The notes under the pieces are model-generated. The model saw nothing but the letters and a program-made list of their open reading frames with translations. It was not told where the DNA came from and did not search any database. From positions 3,286,001-3,350,000 of the forward strand of contig NC_019567.1 of the NCBI RefSeq assembly GCF_000317895.1: a stretch of DNA of 64,000 bases, in the 5' to 3' direction. This stretch comes from Bdellovibrio bacteriovorus str. Tiberius (GTDB lineage: Bacteria; Bdellovibrionota; Bdellovibrionia; Bdellovibrionales; Bdellovibrionaceae). Shown here in pieces: positions 9,117 to 19,015 of the stretch (position 1 is its first letter; every line of letters begins with the position of its first letter). Position numbers and translations under genes: made by a program.

Positions 9117-9233
9117 AGATGTAAAACTCCTCGATAACGTTCTGATTTACTCTTCGTTTTTAATAGAACTTTACTGAAGGGTTCGGGACAGTTTCTTAAC
9201 GGAAGGTAATTTTTTAGACCTGGTCGGTGGACA

Positions 9234-9261
9234 AAGCTCTCGCCTGTTCAGGCGAGAGCTT
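9234..9261. terminator. Perfect 13-bp hairpin between acnA and the chemoreceptor gene
   Basis: AAGCTCTCGCCTG and its exact complement are separated by two bases. It starts 18 bases after the acnA stop. No T run follows on the minus strand, so it may be a 3' stabilising structure or a factor-assisted terminator rather than a classical intrinsic terminator. Confidence 0.6.
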
Positions 9262-9278
9262 GTGAATTGTGTAAGGAA

Positions 9279-11963
9279 CTAGACCAGCTTGCGAAGCACG
9301 TAATGGAGGATGCCCCCATTTTTGTAGTACTCAAGTTCAACCGCGGTGTCGATGCGAGAACGTACTTTCACGTCCTCTTTCTGACCGTTGGCGCGATGAA
9401 TGGTCAACGTCAAATCCTGCTGCGGCTTCATCCCGGCTGCAATGCCGGAAATATCGAAAGTCTCAGTGCCATCCAAATGCAAAGTCTTGCGATCAGTGCC
9501 CGGATGGAATTGCAAAGGCAGAACCCCCATACCAATCAGGTTGGAACGGTGAATACGCTCAAAACTTTCCGCGATCACAGCTTTCACACCCAACAAACGA
9601 GTGCCCTTGGCTGCCCAGTCACGGGAAGATCCTGTGCCGTACTCTTTACCCGCGATCACCACCAAAGGTGTCATCGTGGACTGATACTTCACGGAGGCAT
9701 CGTAAATGGCCAGCGTTTCGCCGCTTGGCACGTACTTGGTCATGCCGCCTTCCACACCCTGAAGCATTTCGTTCTTGATGCGGATATTGGCAAACGTACC
9801 ACGCACCATCACCTCGTCATTACCACGACGGGATCCGTACGAGTTGAAGTCATGAGCTTCCACTCCATGGGACGTCAGATAACGTCCTGCCGGAGAATCT
9901 TTCTTAATACTTCCGGCCGGTGAAATATGGTCCGTCGTGATAGAATCACCCAAGATAGCCAAAGGACGAGCCCCTTTCACATCATGAACCGCTTCCGGCT
10001 TCAGACCCATGCCTTCAAAGTACGGTGGATTCTTGATGTAGGTGCTTTTTTCCCAGCTGTATACCTGTGATGACGTGGTATTGATTTTCTGCCAGTCTTC
10101 TGTGCCCGCGAAAACATTTCCATAACGAGTGTCGAACATTTTCGTTTCAACAGTCTTGTTGATGGTATCCTGGATTTCCTGAGTACTTGGCCAGATGTCT
10201 TTCAGGTACACCGGCTTGCCGGCAGAATCTTCGCCCAGAGAATCCCTGGTGATATCGATCATCATATTACCCGCCAAAGCGTGCGCCACCACCAGCATCG
10301 GGGACGCCAGATAGTTCGCTTTCACGTGCGGATTGATACGGCCTTCAAAGTTGCGGTTTCCGGAAAGAACCGACGCCACAACCAGATTTCCTTTTTCAAC
10401 GGCCCCTGCCACCGGCGCATCCAGCGGACCGGAATTTCCGATACAAGTCGTGCAACCATAACCCACAAGATTGAAGCCAAGTTTATCCAGATAAGTCTGC
10501 AAACCTGCGCGCTCTAGATAGTCCGTCACCACCTGAGACCCCGGAGCCAGGGATGTTTTCACCCACGGCTTCACGGTCAGGCCTTTTTCCACGGCTTTCT
10601 TCGCCACCAGACCGGCACCGATCATCACCGAGGGATTGGAAGTGTTCGTGCAACTGGTGATCGCGGCGATAACCACATCCCCGTGACCCAAAGAATAATT
10701 TTGACTGTCCACAGCAACCGCCGACGCGGATTTGGTCGTTTTGTCGGCTTCTACCTGGAATCCTGCGACCAGTTGTTTTTTGAAGTCTTCAGCAGCTCCA
10801 GCCAGAACCACACGGTCCTGCGGGCGTTTCGGTCCTGCCAGTGACGGCACCACCGTGGACATGTCCAGATGAAGAGTGTCGTTGAAGTGATAGTGCTTTT
10901 CAGCTTCTTCTGAACGCCACAAACCGGTTTCTTTTGCATAAGCCTCAACCAAAGCAATCGTTGCGGCATCACGGCCGGACAGACGCAGATACTTCATTGT
11001 CTGTTCGTCCACCGGGAAGAACCCGCAGGTTGCACCGTATTCCGGAGCCATGTTGGCAATCGTCGCACGATCCGCCAAGGACATGGACGCCAGACCCGGG
11101 CCATAGAATTCAACAAATTTTCCGACCACACCTTTTTTTCGCAGCATCTGCGTGATGGTCAGAACAAGATCCGTCGCGGTCGTGCCTTCTTGCATCTTGC
11201 CATCCAGCTTAAATCCGACCACTTCCGGAATCAGCATGCTGAGAGGTTGCCCCAGCATCACCGCTTCCGCCTCGATACCACCGACACCCCAGCCCAGCAC
11301 GGCCAGACCGTTGATCATGGTGGTATGACTGTCTGTGCCCACCAGCGTGTCCGGGAAGGCATTGGCACCATCCGACCCTTGATTGGACCAAACCGTTTTA
11401 CCCAAATACTCCAGATTCACCTGGTGGCAAATACCGGTGCCCGGCGGAACCACTTTGAAATTCTGAAACGCGTTCTGCCCCCATTTCAGGAAGACATAAC
11501 GTTCGTGGTTTCGTTCAAATTCCATCTTAACGTTTTCATCAAAGGACTTCGGCGTACCGAAAGCATCGACCATCACCGAGTGGTCAATCACCAGATCCAC
11601 TGGCACCAGCGGGTTGATCTTTTTCGGATCACCACCCAGAGCTTTCATCGCGTCACGCATTGCTGCCAGATCCACGACTGCCGGTACACCGGTGAAGTCC
11701 TGCATCAGCACTCGCGCCGGGAAGAAAGAAATTTCGCGGGAAAGGGATTCGGTGCTCAGGCTCAGCAGGGAATCAATGTCCTCTTTGCTGACATGCAGAC
11801 CATCCTCGTGGCGCAGAAGGTTTTCCAAAAGGACCTTCAGCGACACCGGTAGTTTTTTTATATTGGGATGCTGGATTTTCTGAGCGTTGAAAGTGGTGTA
11901 GCTCTGAGAGCCCACCTGAAGTTTCGATTTCGTCTTAAAACTGTCTTTGGATTGAATGAACAT
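9279..11963 (-). CDS. acnA: Aconitate hydratase A
   Basis: Aconitase of the AcnA/IRP1 type, which interconverts citrate and isocitrate in the TCA cycle with a [4Fe-4S] cluster. At 894 residues it has the expected length. The three cluster cysteines are in SCTNTSNP and [11 protein letters not shown]; the [20 protein letters not shown] and C-terminal [13 protein letters not shown] and [20 protein letters not shown] segments are all present. It starts 16 bases after the Nudix hydrolase stop, so the two are probably cotranscribed. The ribosome site AAGGAG sits in the loop of a 6-bp hairpin that abuts the start codon (see separate entry), which may allow translational control. Confidence 0.98.
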
Positions 11964-13493: not shown

Positions 13494-13524
13494 AAAAAGC
13501 CACCTCCAGAAGGTGGCTTTTTTT
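13494..13524 (+). terminator. Intrinsic terminator after the 12.7-kb barrel gene
   Basis: AAAAAGCCACCT pairs with AGGTGGCTTTTT around a short loop and is followed by a T run, 36 bases after the stop codon. Confidence 0.9.
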
Positions 13525-13588: not shown

Positions 13589-14155
13589 ATGAATACACGG
13601 GACGTGAATAAAATCGCCATATTAGGGATGATCGTATCGATCCTCTCTGCCTGCTCGGACGCCAGTCCGACAGTGTCGATTCTGCGTTCTGTGGAAAGTC
13701 TTGAGTTCAATCCAAGTCACGTTGTCACTTCCAGCCTGAACAGTGTGCCATTACAAGCCTCTTGCGCCAACTTCATCGGCAACATCGACATGAGTCTCGA
13801 TGGCGGTGTCACCTGGATCACGCCGACCAGTTATGACGTCACCGCGCCGTCATCGTGTGTGAACGGCAAGTTCACCGTCAGTCTGTCCAATCTGAAATCC
13901 CCGTGGAGCTCTTTGGCGATTTCACCCGGGCAAACTCTGAAAGTGAAATTCCGCGCACAACCGCGCAAGAACAATTTCTTCTACAAAGAAGTAACAGTGC
14001 TTTATTCCCCGTCATCCACCCGCAGTCAGGACATCCTGATTGGCAGTGCCGAACAGGCCGGTGGTGGATACCGCGTAAAAAGCCGCCTTCGTCATCAGCA
14101 GCAGCATGTCGCCACGGGCGGCAACTTTAAAATCAAAGGGAGAATCACAGAATGA
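13589..14155 (+). CDS. Small lipoprotein coupled to fibre protein
   Basis: A 188-residue lipoprotein: after a short N-terminus, IAILGMIVSILSAC provides a hydrophobic segment and a lipobox (LSAC). The mature part has Ig-like features (DMSLDGGVTWITP, PGQTLKVKFRAQPRKNNFFYKEVTVLY) and ends with a basic, glutamine/histidine-rich stretch (RLRHQQQHVATGG). I do not recognise the family. Its TGA overlaps the start of the fibre gene by four bases (ATGA), so the two are translationally coupled and probably act together, for instance with the lipoprotein anchoring or helping to assemble the fibre; that role is inferred. Confidence 0.75.
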   Translation: MNTRDVNKIAILGMIVSILSACSDASPTVSILRSVESLEFNPSHVVTSSLNSVPLQASCANFIGNIDMSLDGGVTWITPTSYDVTAPSSCVNGKFTVSLSNLKSPWSSLAISPGQTLKVKFRAQPRKNNFFYKEVTVLYSPSSTRSQDILIGSAEQAGGGYRVKSRLRHQQQHVATGGNFKIKGRITE

Positions 14156-16920
14156 AAAATCTGATTTATTCCCTTATGCTGATTTTGACGACAGCTTCGG
14201 TTCCGGCTCAGGCAGCTTCGCCGTCGCCAGGTCCGTTGTTCACTTATGAAGGTTTGCTGACGGATGCCGCGGGCACTCCGATCACCACAACCCAGACCGT
14301 TCTTTTACAGATTATCTATCCATCCACTTGTGTGGTGTTTGAAGAAACCCACAGCATCACCCCTGGTTCCAGCGGTGAATTCAGTGTGATTGTCGGCAGT
14401 GGCACACGCACGGATTCCACGGGCAATACCGCGGATCGCATTTTTGCGTCTGCCGGCAGTGTGACCTGTTCTGACACCAGCACCGTGACGGCATCGGGAT
14501 TCACAACCCGTTCTTTGCGCGTGCGTGTGGGCGGAACCGATCTGACGCCGGATGTGGCGATCAATACGGTTCCATTTGCCATCAATGCCGCCCGTCTTGC
14601 CGACAAAACCGCCGCAGACTTTGTACAGGTTTCAGCGTCGACAACTCAAACCAATGTTGACAGTGTTTTCAGCCGCTACAGCACTTTGAACAGTGTTTTG
14701 AATATGTTCACAACAGCGGGCGCCAACGGTCAGGTTCTGATTGGCACTGGCACCGGCTATACCCCGGCAAATTTGACGGCGGGTTCCGGTATCAATATCA
14801 CCAACTCTTCCGGTGGCATTACGATTTCTGCCAGCGGTGGAGGCGGCTCGGTCACTTCCGTGACAGCCCAATCACCTTTGGGTGTTGCCGGAACTGCAGC
14901 CGTGCCGGATCTGTTCATCACACAAGCCAACTCCACCACTAACGGTTATTTGAGTTCCGCAGACTGGCAGGCCTTCAACAACAAGCAAGACAAGTCCCTT
15001 TCCACGGGCCGAATTTGGGTTGGCAGCAGCGGCATGTCTGTGGAAGTTCCCGTCAGTGGCGATGCGACTTTGGATTACTCTGGTGCCCTCAGCCTTGCAA
15101 GTGTCGGCACCCCTGGCACTTATCCCAAAGTGACCGTTGATGCGAAAGGCCGCGTGACTGCGGGCTCAGCACTGGTGGCTGCGGATATTCCGTCCCTGGA
15201 CTGGAATAAAATCACCACGGGTTTGCCATCTTCACTTTCTGGTTATGGCATCCTGGATGCTGTTAAAAACTTTGGTGGCACGGCAGGAATCATGTCTGGC
15301 ATAGATGCGGCCCGTCCGGCTGCGGGTAATGCAGGCCTTCTTTATATTTCTTCAGACACTCATCAGATCTATCGCGACAATGGGTCCTCATGGAGCACTC
15401 TGGGGGGCGGTGGAGCGGCAACCCCGATCAGTCTTACGTCCCAAGTCACGGGAGTCCTGCCCATTGCGAACGGTGGTACTGGTGCATCCTCTGTTGTTGG
15501 CGCGATGGCGACTCTATCCCCGCTGACAAGCAAAGGCGATATTCTGGTTCACAACGGTACAAACAACGTTCGCCTGCCTGCGGGATCCCCTGGCCAGGTT
15601 CTGACCGCGGATACTGCTGATGCCAACGGTGTGAAATGGATCTCGATTCCCACGGGCACCGTCACGAATGTGACTGGCACGGCTCCGGTGGTTGTTTCCA
15701 ACAACACCACAACGCCGACTATCTCGGTCAACGATGCCACCGCCAGCACCAAAGGTGTTGTGCAAATCGGAAGTGGTCTGAATGTCACATCCGGCACCGT
15801 CAGCGTGAATCCGGCATCATTCCCTTCGATAGTCCCGGTTTCAAAAGGTGGTACCGGCACTGGCACCATCGCGGCAAATAAAATACTGATGACCAACGGA
15901 TCAGCCAATGCATTCACTGAATTTTCGTGCGGCATCGGTCAGGCCATTGCCTTTGATGCCATGGGTGTTGCCGGCTGTTCCAGCTACAGTTCCTTGGGTG
16001 TGATTGTGAATTCAGGGAACTCTTTGGGAATCCCGATGATCGTGGGCACCAACGATGCCTTCAGCCTGTCGCTTGAAACCAACAATACGACCCGCATGAC
16101 GATCGACGATAACGGCCGCGTGGGTATTGGAACAACCACCCCAGCGACGCCCCTGCATGTGCTCGGATCCGGTGAAGTGGCGCGCTTCGTGTCTTCGGCC
16201 ACAGGTGGTGTGGTGTTAGATTCCACGGCGCTGAATTATAATCCGTCTTTGATCTACAGAAAAACCAATATCAATCGCTGGTCGATGATGGTTAATGCGG
16301 TATCCGAAAGCGGATCCAACCTGGGTTCGAACTTCAGTATCCTTCGCTATGATGACGCTGGCACCACGCTGGGAGCGGCAGTGACAATTGATCGCGCCAC
16401 CGGGAACTTTGGTATCAATACCGCGGCACCGACTTACACCATTCACGTGACCGGGACTGCCGGATTAAGTACAGGTTCTGCATGGACAGTGGCATCCGAT
16501 GCACGCCTGAAAGACGTGCATGGCGATTATGAATACGGCTTGAATGAAATTCTGAAACTGCACACAGTTCGTTACAATTACAAAGCTGGCAACGCCGCGA
16601 AAATCCCTTCGGATGTTCCTATGGTGGGCTTCATCGCCCAGGAAGTTCAGCAGGTGATTCCGGATGCAGTGAAAACCCGCGCTGACGGCTATCTTGAACT
16701 GAATGTCGACCCCATTCACTGGGCGACCGTGAATGCGGTGAAAGACCTTCACGGCATGTGCAAAGCCACGCAGGATCAACTGAACACCATCACTCGAAAA
16801 GTCGCTTCTTTGGAAGAAGATGCTGCTGCGAAAGACCTGCGCATCAAGGCGCTGGAAGATGAAAACAAGAGTCTCAAAAAAGACCTGGAAATGATCAAAG
16901 CCAAACTTGGCCTGCAGTAA
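14152..16920 (+). CDS. Phage-tail-fibre-like surface protein with C-terminal S74 chaperone domain
   Basis: A 922-residue secreted protein (signal peptide ending near AQAAS). The N-terminal domain (FTYEGLLTDAAGTPITT...) is followed by long low-complexity Ser/Thr/Gly/Ala beta-rich sequence like phage fibre shafts, with motifs seen in fibre proteins such as GYLSSADWQAFNNKQ (about residue 265), two GGTG-containing segments (LPIANGGTGASS, VPVSKGGTGTGT) and NGRVGIGTTTPATPLHV. The C-terminal end is a peptidase S74 intramolecular chaperone: Ser782 and Lys787 in SDARLK, then GFIAQEVQQVIPDAV and a terminal coiled coil. In known S74 proteins this domain trimerises the fibre and cuts itself off before the Ser, which here would release 141 residues. 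It resembles the mosaic trimeric adhesins reported in B. bacteriovorus; a prey-contact role is inferred. Confidence 0.87.
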   Translation: MKNLIYSLMLILTTASVPAQAASPSPGPLFTYEGLLTDAAGTPITTTQTVLLQIIYPSTCVVFEETHSITPGSSGEFSVIVGSGTRTDSTGNTADRIFASAGSVTCSDTSTVTASGFTTRSLRVRVGGTDLTPDVAINTVPFAINAARLADKTAADFVQVSASTTQTNVDSVFSRYSTLNSVLNMFTTAGANGQVLIGTGTGYTPANLTAGSGINITNSSGGITISASGGGGSVTSVTAQSPLGVAGTAAVPDLFITQANSTTNGYLSSADWQAFNNKQDKSLSTGRIWVGSSGMSVEVPVSGDATLDYSGALSLASVGTPGTYPKVTVDAKGRVTAGSALVAADIPSLDWNKITTGLPSSLSGYGILDAVKNFGGTAGIMSGIDAARPAAGNAGLLYISSDTHQIYRDNGSSWSTLGGGGAATPISLTSQVTGVLPIANGGTGASSVVGAMATLSPLTSKGDILVHNGTNNVRLPAGSPGQVLTADTADANGVKWISIPTGTVTNVTGTAPVVVSNNTTTPTISVNDATASTKGVVQIGSGLNVTSGTVSVNPASFPSIVPVSKGGTGTGTIAANKILMTNGSANAFTEFSCGIGQAIAFDAMGVAGCSSYSSLGVIVNSGNSLGIPMIVGTNDAFSLSLETNNTTRMTIDDNGRVGIGTTTPATPLHVLGSGEVARFVSSATGGVVLDSTALNYNPSLIYRKTNINRWSMMVNAVSESGSNLGSNFSILRYDDAGTTLGAAVTIDRATGNFGINTAAPTYTIHVTGTAGLSTGSAWTVASDARLKDVHGDYEYGLNEILKLHTVRYNYKAGNAAKIPSDVPMVGFIAQEVQQVIPDAVKTRADGYLELNVDPIHWATVNAVKDLHGMCKATQDQLNTITRKVASLEEDAAAKDLRIKALEDENKSLKKDLEMIKAKLGLQ

Positions 16921-17030
16921 TCTCATTTCGAAACTTCAAAACATACCATTACAGTACGACGTGTGGGGGATACTTCCACAGTTTTTACAATTTTGTTAAT
17001 CTTATAGATAGCTGATTGTAGAGGTACGTA

Positions 17031-18209
17031 ATGACAAAATCACTATTGATGGCCGTGCTGTTGGTGTCCCCTTTCGCACTGGCGAAAAAACAAAATGAAC
17101 CCAATCTTCGCGCGCGTGGCCTGCTGAAAAAAATCACCTGCAGTTATCACGGCAGCGGAAAAACCCCTACCGGCGAAAGCATCGGATCGGTGGACTTTGC
17201 CGATCCGGAAAAAACCGTCTGTGATCCCCTGGGCAGCGGTTCTGCCAACAATACCGAAAACGGTCTGTTTGCGAAGCTCTTCGTAAAAAGCCCTGAGATG
17301 TCCAGTCCGGTCAAAAGCGTGATGGACTATTACAACAACGGTGTGAAGCTTGAGCAGGATCTGTATTTTTCGGACGTCAATGTACCGACGCGCGTTTTCA
17401 CTGACGGCTTTGCCACCAGGAACGGCGAAGTGCTGATGGATGCCAGCGGCAACAAACTGATCGAAAACTTTGCCATCGAATACACCTCCGTCCTGAAACT
17501 TTCAGATCAGGATCGTGAAGGCCACTATGAAATTTCATTGCTGTCTGATGACGGTGCCCGCCTGTTTGTGAAAGAGGGCGACGCATGGAATGAACTGGTG
17601 AATAACGACGGCGTGCACCCGACCCGTCTGGGCTGTCCTTTCCGCACGGTGGAAATGAAAAAGGACACCGAACTGCCGATCCGTATTCTGTACTATCAGG
17701 GGCCGCGCTATCACATTGCCAATGTGATGCTGTGGAAACATCACAAAAAGGCCCAAAGCTGGAAAAAGCCTTCGTCGCATTCCCTGTGCGGCATTCAAAG
17801 CAACAATTTCTTCTACAACCCGAACAACGGAAAAAAACAAGCGGCGGTGAAGTTCCTGGAAGCCACGGGCTGGGATGTGGTTGCGCCGGCCAACTTCCGC
17901 ATGCCTCCTTTGAAACCGAATCCGTGCGTGGAACCGGACTTTGCTTTAAGCGACTTCAAGGTGGCCTCGGTGGCCGCTCCGAATGCAGAAATTACCTGGT
18001 CGACAAACTTCCCGTCCTCAAGCCAGATCTATATCGTCAATATCTTCACGGGTGAGGAAATGTACACCGCGGTTGATAGCGAGATGGTCACAAGCCATAA
18101 AGCCGTCTTAAGCGGTCTGATCCATGGTTTGCAGTATCAGGTTCAGGCCATCAGCGTGGATGCAAGCGGTAAAGAGCTTCGCAGCCCTGCCATCATGCTT
18201 CTGCCATAA
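17031..18209 (+). CDS. Exported PA14-like and Fn3-like domain protein
   Basis: A 392-residue protein with a signal peptide (MTKSLLMAVLLVSPFALA). Residues ~95-250 look like a PA14 domain: YNNGVKLEQDLYFSDVNVPTRVFTDGF, then HYEISLLSDDGARLFVKEGDAWNELVNNDG and LPIRILYYQGPRYHIANVMLW, the pattern of carbohydrate-binding PA14 modules. Residues ~300-390 look like a fibronectin type III domain (ITWSTNFPSSSQIYIV, HKAVLSGLIHGLQYQVQAISVDASGKE). Such modules bind glycans or surfaces. It stands 110 bases after the fibre gene with no clear terminator between; the AT-rich gap includes a TATAGA that could be a -10 element, but no good -35 is seen. Localisation and ligand are inferred. Confidence 0.72.
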   Translation: MTKSLLMAVLLVSPFALAKKQNEPNLRARGLLKKITCSYHGSGKTPTGESIGSVDFADPEKTVCDPLGSGSANNTENGLFAKLFVKSPEMSSPVKSVMDYYNNGVKLEQDLYFSDVNVPTRVFTDGFATRNGEVLMDASGNKLIENFAIEYTSVLKLSDQDREGHYEISLLSDDGARLFVKEGDAWNELVNNDGVHPTRLGCPFRTVEMKKDTELPIRILYYQGPRYHIANVMLWKHHKKAQSWKKPSSHSLCGIQSNNFFYNPNNGKKQAAVKFLEATGWDVVAPANFRMPPLKPNPCVEPDFALSDFKVASVAAPNAEITWSTNFPSSSQIYIVNIFTGEEMYTAVDSEMVTSHKAVLSGLIHGLQYQVQAISVDASGKELRSPAIMLLP

Positions 18210-18289: not shown

Positions 18290-19015
18290 ATGAAAGCACT
18301 TCTGATCAGTTTTATTCTTTTGATCTGCTCCCCCGCCTGGTCCCTGCAGTCAGCCTTTGGCGGCACGATTGAAGGTTTAAGCATTCCCAATTCGCACGAA
18401 GTATATAGCGACGCCAGTGGCGCTCGTGTGGTGCGTGGGATGGAGCCCAGAAACAAGGCCCAGATTCATGAGCTGCTGGATTCCGGCATCGAAGAAGTTC
18501 TGATCTTTAAAACCGACACCAAAGGCGAAGTGGCCAAAGAAATCACCCAGCTGCAAAACGCGGGTCTTTCTGCCGCGGCGATCACTCATGTGCCCTTTCC
18601 GTGGAAAGACCTGCATGACTACAAAGCGGCCTGCCGCATGACGATTGAGGCTTTAAAAACAATTGAAAGATCAGTAAAGGCCGGAAGAAGCATTTACTTC
18701 CACTGCACGGTGGGTGAAGACCGCACGGGTTATCTGGCGGGTCTGTGGGGCCTGTGGACCGGTGAATTTGAAACGGCAGCACAGGCCTTTAAAACCGAAA
18801 TGTGTGCCCGGGGTTATGAAGCGGGTAATCCACGCAAGCCTTACAAAGAGGTTGTCGCCAAGATTCGTGAAACACTGACGCCGACCTATCTGAAAATGGC
18901 CACGGTGCTGACAGAAGCCCGCGCACGCGGGCAGAACCTGCACGGGTCCCTGTGCAATCAGGAACCCGTGATTGAAAACGCTGCGGCTTTCCGCTGCGTC
19001 AGCAAAAGAAACTAG
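18290..19015 (+). CDS. Secreted tyrosine/dual-specificity phosphatase-like protein
   Basis: A 241-residue protein with a signal peptide (MKALLISFILLICSPAWS). The phosphatase P-loop HCTVGEDRTG carries the catalytic Cys139 and Arg145 of the CX5R signature. The upstream RVVRGMEPRNKAQIHELLDSGIEEVLIF and ITHVPFPWKDL segments match the atypical dual-specificity/DSP-PTPase fold. It would act in the periplasm, outside the cell or in prey on phosphotyrosine, phosphoinositide-like or inositol phosphate substrates; the substrate is unknown. The start codon sits directly behind a hairpin (18262-18287). Its stop overlaps the convergent NTF2-like gene's stop in the palindrome CTAG. Confidence 0.82.
   Translation: MKALLISFILLICSPAWSLQSAFGGTIEGLSIPNSHEVYSDASGARVVRGMEPRNKAQIHELLDSGIEEVLIFKTDTKGEVAKEITQLQNAGLSAAAITHVPFPWKDLHDYKAACRMTIEALKTIERSVKAGRSIYFHCTVGEDRTGYLAGLWGLWTGEFETAAQAFKTEMCARGYEAGNPRKPYKEVVAKIRETLTPTYLKMATVLTEARARGQNLHGSLCNQEPVIENAAAFRCVSKRN

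Follow-up and report, generated by a model that had tools for sequence, protein, structure and literature searches.

What holds a MAT (mosaic adhesive trimer) fibre on the predator cell? Its discoverers leave the attachment open; they place the N-terminal domain (N-domain) of the fibre at the predator surface, where it must bind a surface element that was not identified (PMC10769870). The locus described here raises the question of whether a lipoprotein encoded immediately upstream of one such fibre could be this element. The locus lies in a window (the whole 64,000-nucleotide stretch of DNA that we analysed) corresponding to C1:3286001-3350000 of a 3.99-Mb Bdellovibrio genome.

The overlapping lipoprotein and fibre genes

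The earlier note on this DNA had described a lipoprotein gene (13589-14155) and a fibre gene (14152-16920) that share an ATGA, and both the coordinates and the description are correct. The features of the locus, numbered from the first letter of the window, are as follows.

13495-13524, + strand: hairpin with a T-run, 3′ of the preceding outer-membrane-protein-like gene; read from the sequence
13589-14155, + strand: lipoprotein coding sequence, 188 aa, present once in the genome; assigned to class W of the MAT-associated lipoproteins
13652-13654, + strand: lipobox cysteine C22 (LSAC/SD), invariant in 23 homologues
13691-14014, + strand: Ig-like domain (residues about 35-142) predicted in the lipoprotein by AlphaFold2, pLDDT about 82, with Foldseek matches to Ig domains
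14063-14152, + strand: C-terminal tail of the lipoprotein with two strand-like repeats (GGYRVKSRLR ... GNFKIKGRIT), the proposed fibre-docking element (conservation; repeat profile)
14138-14142, + strand: ribosome-binding-like GGGAG for the fibre, within the last lipoprotein codons; GGAAGGAT-like in relatives
14152-14155, + strand: ATGA in which the stop codon of the lipoprotein overlaps the start codon of the fibre, seen in the sequence and kept in relatives
14152-16920, + strand: coding sequence of a MAT-family fibre, 922 aa, trimeric by homology; orthologue of B. bacteriovorus HD100 Bd3182 (NF053851, 114 bits; PDB 8OJN)
14203-14634, + strand: MAT N-terminal domain, the conserved fibre base, residues 18-161 (NF053851; conservation)
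16045-16494, + strand: beta-helical tip, residues 632-781, homologous to a crystal structure (phmmer E 3.4e-76 to 8OJN)
16495-16674, + strand: S74 intramolecular chaperone/protease with S782 and K787 (SDARLK; PF13884); cleavage published for the orthologue
16962-16980, + strand: terminator-like hairpin between the fibre and PA14 genes; the number of such sites is not above shuffles
17031-18209, + strand: secreted PA14/fn3 protein, 392 aa, third cassette member within Bdellovibrio (17/17 complete loci)

Reading the sequence around the first hairpin, we consider that the lipoprotein and the fibre are probably made from a transcript of their own, which would start after 13495-13524.

The fibre half of this finding is already known. 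The fibre starts with a signal-peptide-like segment, and its residues 18-161 match the NCBIfam model of MAT fibres, NF053851, with 114.1 bits (cut-off 60). Peptidase_S74 (PF13884) matches residues 782-841 well above the cut-off (E 1.3e-12; 48.3 bits against 22), and the SDxxxK dyad reads SDARLK at 782-787, just as the earlier note had proposed with its Ser782 and Lys787. The tip is homologous to a trimeric crystal structure (PDB 8OJN/8ONB/8ONC, E 3.4e-76), although we did not compute trimerisation ourselves; the orthologue in genome G005 matches the 8OJN structure across all 151 residues. That crystallised trimer is the orthologue Bd3182, which cleaves itself at S782 unless the residue is replaced in S782A (PMC10769870). 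Thus, the S74/MAT part of the note's reading, a phage-derived mosaic trimeric adhesin, and the outcome of the S782A experiment that it suggested are both published for this orthologue (PMC10769870). Display on the predator surface was also seen for C-terminally tagged MATs, Bd3182 among those tested (PMC10769870).

Two relatives carry shorter fibres in this position. The coupled fibre of B. bacteriovorus kdesi (L048/L105) stops at 818 aa, shortly past SDxxxK, and its S74 domain looks truncated. In species G016 (L060), the coupled fibre has only 550 aa and a non-S74 tip, and the base and the lipoprotein are of the same kind.

What is new is the lipoprotein partner and its family, as against the fibre, S74 cleavage, trimer and surface display, which were known (PMC10769870). 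The word 'lipoprotein' has 0 occurrences in that paper, and the protein is not described there. Comparing it with Pfam, NCBIfam and PHROG, we found no family that fits; DUF1573 (PF07610) was rejected at 14.5 bits, below its cut-off of 26.1. The signal peptide carries the lipobox L-S-A-C22, with Ser and not Asp at +2. Lipid modification at C22 and sorting of the protein to the outer membrane are inferred from this sequence. AlphaFold2, run on the lipoprotein with five orthologues, gave an Ig-like domain with a pLDDT of about 82 and a low-confidence, unstructured tail. The top Foldseek matches of the former are Ig domains (E 4.5e-4), so that the description 'Ig-like' in the earlier note is true for residues about 35-142. 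Tail and Ig domain nevertheless reach the same level of conservation, 0.64. Both structure models of this study were built on six sequences each, by single-chain prediction only.

Conservation of the pair and its neighbours

Next to the window's own genome, which is counted, the lipoprotein is present in further Bdellovibrio species to a total of 21/24. A match in G012 is a different, large protein and was not counted as the lipoprotein. The four-base overlap is kept in 17/17 complete Bdellovibrio loci of relatives, and at three loci on contig edges the fibre again follows the lipoprotein with the overlap present. The three genomes (3/24) that are devoid of the lipoprotein are also devoid of this fibre class and of the PA14/fn3 orthologue; their MATs are of other kinds only, with at most 39% identity. 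The earlier note had named lipoprotein-free homologous fibre loci as the observation that would refute it. We looked for a lipoprotein-free locus with this fibre class across the 24 Bdellovibrio genomes, and none was found.

A lipoprotein profile search also led beyond Bdellovibrio: several further genera of the family carry free-standing homologues. Wherever the flanks of these could be read, a MAT-like fibre is encoded downstream, and this holds for at least four genera besides Bdellovibrio. These pairs mostly show the same -4 overlap, one genus having a gap of about 80 bases, and the tips of their partner fibres are very different, many of them without S74. The gene pair thus exists elsewhere, as the note had suggested checking, in 21/24 Bdellovibrio species and at least four more genera. 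The coupling goes beyond chance, with the same overlap at the complete loci, the contig-edge loci and most other-genus loci. Judged by these sequence comparisons, the lipoprotein and the fibre are one evolutionary unit.

Some candidates were set aside in the course of these searches. The lipoprotein-like ORF upstream in L037 runs antisense within a serine-protease-like gene and was rejected. ORFs of 900-1570 aa with a lipoprotein-like N-terminus (L090-L093, L102-L104, L063) are not fibres, and so there is no Rosetta-stone fusion. As a separate observation, G029 (L101, reverse-complement 9191-10202) has a 2075-aa fibre followed by a third gene, overlapping by 4 bases, for a secreted protein of 336 aa.

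Within Bdellovibrio, the PA14/fn3 gene comes after the pair in all of the complete loci, while genes outside the trio of lipoprotein, fibre and PA14 differ beyond the closest relatives. Elsewhere in the family, 13 genera have homologues of PA14/fn3. The conserved cassette showed no gene for a dedicated outer-membrane channel. Downstream of the cassette, 18290-19015 encodes a secreted dual-specificity-phosphatase-like protein (Pfam PF22785, PF13350).

Lipoprotein classes and fibre bases

Some other fibres of the window's genome adjoin lipoproteins of 92-96 aa. Searching the genus with three of these small lipoproteins and ignoring the fibres, we obtained about 50 loci. A MAT gene lies directly downstream of 29/30 small Bdellovibrio lipoproteins outside class D, and a genome has only some 3-30 MAT genes. 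In these 29 cases, the junction is an overlap of -4 or -8 (ATGAATA) or a gap of less than 65 bases. The small lipoproteins have a lipobox, then a short spacer that lacks an Ig domain, and they end in a similar two-repeat tail.

The evidence for the tail repeats is uneven. A repeat profile built from window-type tails alone scored 17/17 representatives above their own shuffle mean, with single p values from <0.00025 to 0.44. It was strong in some lipoproteins (p <0.00025, 0.001 and 0.0085) and weak in others, the tail motif being short, and with a mixed-class tail HMM the window-type tails did not rise above decoys. A tail with tandem strand repeats, common to the lipoprotein classes, is likely on present sequences and not proven. 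We propose that the MAT-associated lipoproteins form a putative family with a lipobox, a spacer (Ig-like in class W, absent in most) and a two-repeat tail. The earlier note had overlooked three things: lipoproteins of this kind also accompany other fibre classes, the family can do without the Ig domain, and the PA14/fn3 gene is a conserved third member.

In HD100, too, members of this putative family adjoin fibres. Immediately upstream of each of its MATs of 843 and 627 aa lies a lipoprotein of class C or class B. From their lengths and from the nearness of the genes to each other, we infer that these two MATs are Bd2734 and Bd2740; the locus tags were not read. Bd2734 (843 aa) and Bd2740 (627 aa) are the two MAT deletions that caused a measurable delay of predation (PMC10769870).

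We then compared the lipoprotein class with the parts of the fibre. Conservation along the fibre is 0.51-0.64 in the N-domain and falls to 0.17 in the tip, where the mean similarity is 0.18. Clustering the lipoproteins by their own sequence gave in essence the classes used on the N-domain tree. The eight lipoprotein labels need 9 changes on this tree, compared with a shuffled mean of 34. Distances between lipoprotein tails and between N-domains correlate over 39 pairs with a Mantel r of 0.94 (permutation maximum 0.26), and r is 0.90 for the small lipoproteins only. Within the window-type loci, the lipoprotein distances correlate with the fibre tip at 0.78 and with the N-domain at 0.67. We do not use this within-class correlation as evidence because tip and N-domain are about equal, which reflects shared ancestry. 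Over all classes, the lipoprotein class tracks the fibre N-domain while the tips swap freely. Co-duplication of neighbours alone could yield the correlation of tail and N-domain, and contact between the two remains an inference.

Most MATs of the window's genome have bases of the YQGR kind, and none of these fibres has a lipoprotein upstream. An upstream lipoprotein is therefore not a general habit of MAT genes. One S74 fibre of the window's genome, 1419 aa long and with a base of class A, also has no upstream lipoprotein and is an apparent orphan (L039:3186 in reverse-complement coordinates; G000:C1 near 1088000-1092500).

The class D lipoprotein is a single, highly conserved type that sits just after an S74 fibre in 15/20 genomes. 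In other genera, several class D homologues are encoded upstream of a fibre whose base is of the YQGR/YHGR kind. Judging the presence of YQGR-kind MATs in each genome by its best MAT score, we find class D across the 24 Bdellovibrio genomes only where high-scoring YQGR-kind MATs occur (one-sided p 0.002). Four genomes have no class D, and three of them also have no high-scoring YQGR-kind MATs. The exception is G017, which has about 20 fibres, many of them high-scoring and of the YQGR type, and no class D lipoprotein. Class D probably serves the YQGR-base class in trans, as far as this distribution can tell; G017 weakens the stricter idea that class D alone partners every YQGR fibre. Most Bdellovibrio genomes encode, 3′ of the class D lipoprotein, a conserved secreted protein with 'VVDVRRNITLSExxxxYKDFYI' (L150-L169).

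A possible anchor or passing partner of the fibre base

The lipoprotein is a candidate for the surface element bound by the N-domain because it is encoded on the same message, matches the base class and is absent together with the fibre. In the mechanism that we propose, the lipoprotein would leave the cytoplasm, receive its lipid at C22 and be sorted to the outer membrane. The tandem-strand tail of the lipoprotein, set off by the Ig-like spacer in class W, would bind the N-terminal base of the fibre that the same message encodes. This would keep the fibre on the predator surface, its variable, S74-processed tip directed toward prey. Each fibre-base class would be paired with its own lipoprotein class, and the YQGR-base class, mostly without an adjacent lipoprotein in Bdellovibrio, would be served in trans by class D.

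That the lipoprotein anchors the fibre base as one half of a two-part fibre system is the reading that we favour, with some confidence and no more, as binding, outer-membrane location and anchoring are all inferred. The earlier note had suggested an anchor or assembly partner in a two-component fibre system. This suggestion withstood the attempted refutation and is backed by the overlap and the co-absence; anchoring is only inferred. We have no binding or localisation data and no model of the complex, so the binding itself is not shown. The shortness of the tail motif, the lack of class D in G017 and the orphan fibre L039:3186 also count against this reading. Nor does anchoring explain how the fibre crosses the outer membrane.

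The main rival is a transient export or assembly role. Small outer-membrane lipoproteins with such roles exist, namely the pilotins. A pilotin- or chaperone-like lipoprotein might meet the base in the periplasm and help the fibre to cross the membrane or trimerise without being its permanent anchor. The overlap and the base-class matching fit this role just as well, and the absence of a dedicated outer-membrane channel from the conserved cassette would suit it. However, a separate lipoprotein class for every base class has the look of docking specificity, and a general exporter needs no such set. There is no direct evidence either way, and we regard the transient role as unlikely while keeping it in play.

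We give still less credit to the possibility that the two proteins never touch. Neighbouring genes with unrelated functions are commonly coupled in translation, and the overlap might set only the fibre level while the lipoprotein does a separate job in the envelope or in handling prey glycans. No interaction data speak against this; but the many pairs with divergent lipoproteins, the class match with the N-domain, the co-absence and the linkage seen again in other genera do. Phage fibre genes often adjoin a chaperone gene, and a chaperone specific for the tip, like the Tfa proteins of phages, which are matched to the tip of their fibre, could be imagined here too. We find it very improbable, since the lipoprotein is kept while the tips vary (with or without S74, at the low similarity given above), its class follows the base, and the S74 domain is already a chaperone.

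Returning to the anchor, we can extend it to a broader proposal, to which we commit only tentatively: matched outer-membrane lipoprotein sockets, one per base class, with the tips swapped and the YQGR class using one socket in trans, would supply the surface element that the MAT prey-recognition system has so far lacked. The lipoprotein family names candidate genes for the attachment that the discoverers left open (PMC10769870), including the neighbours of the fibres that match Bd2734/Bd2740 in length. If true, the proposal would tie the class of the socket to that of the base, a modular rule for how predators exchange tips to widen their prey range. It would also be an example of a cell reusing a phage docking part.

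The closest known system is the set of MAT fibres of HD100, especially Bd3182 (8OJN, 8ONB, 8ONC), to which the window's fibre is orthologous, with the same length, S782/K787, beta-helical tip and N-terminal MAT domain. Unlike the pair described here, the published account of Bd3182 and the MATs has no lipoprotein partner and does not identify what the N-domain binds on the surface (PMC10769870).

A fainter likeness is to phage side-tail fibres, whose lambda-type N-terminal domain (PF08400) weakly resembles the MAT N-domain. This phage tail fibre model matches 5/6 orthologues with a best E of 0.0011, all scores lying below the cut-off (19.5 bits against 26.6). For the N-domain, Foldseek ranked a chain of the Ur-lambda tail tip first (E 0.013). 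The N-domain sequence had no match in the PDB, and VIA-align returned generic beta-sandwiches only (Z about 6 or less). The faint resemblance to PF08400 would fit the reuse of a phage docking part; the phage end docks on the virion, whereas the MAT N-domain would dock on the lipoprotein.

For a lipid anchor there is a precedent in Bd0875, a lipobox adhesin of the MIDAS family that is believed to be held on the predator surface by a lipid (PMC11003981). In that case the adhesin carries the lipid, whereas in the pair described here the lipid would be on a separate partner.
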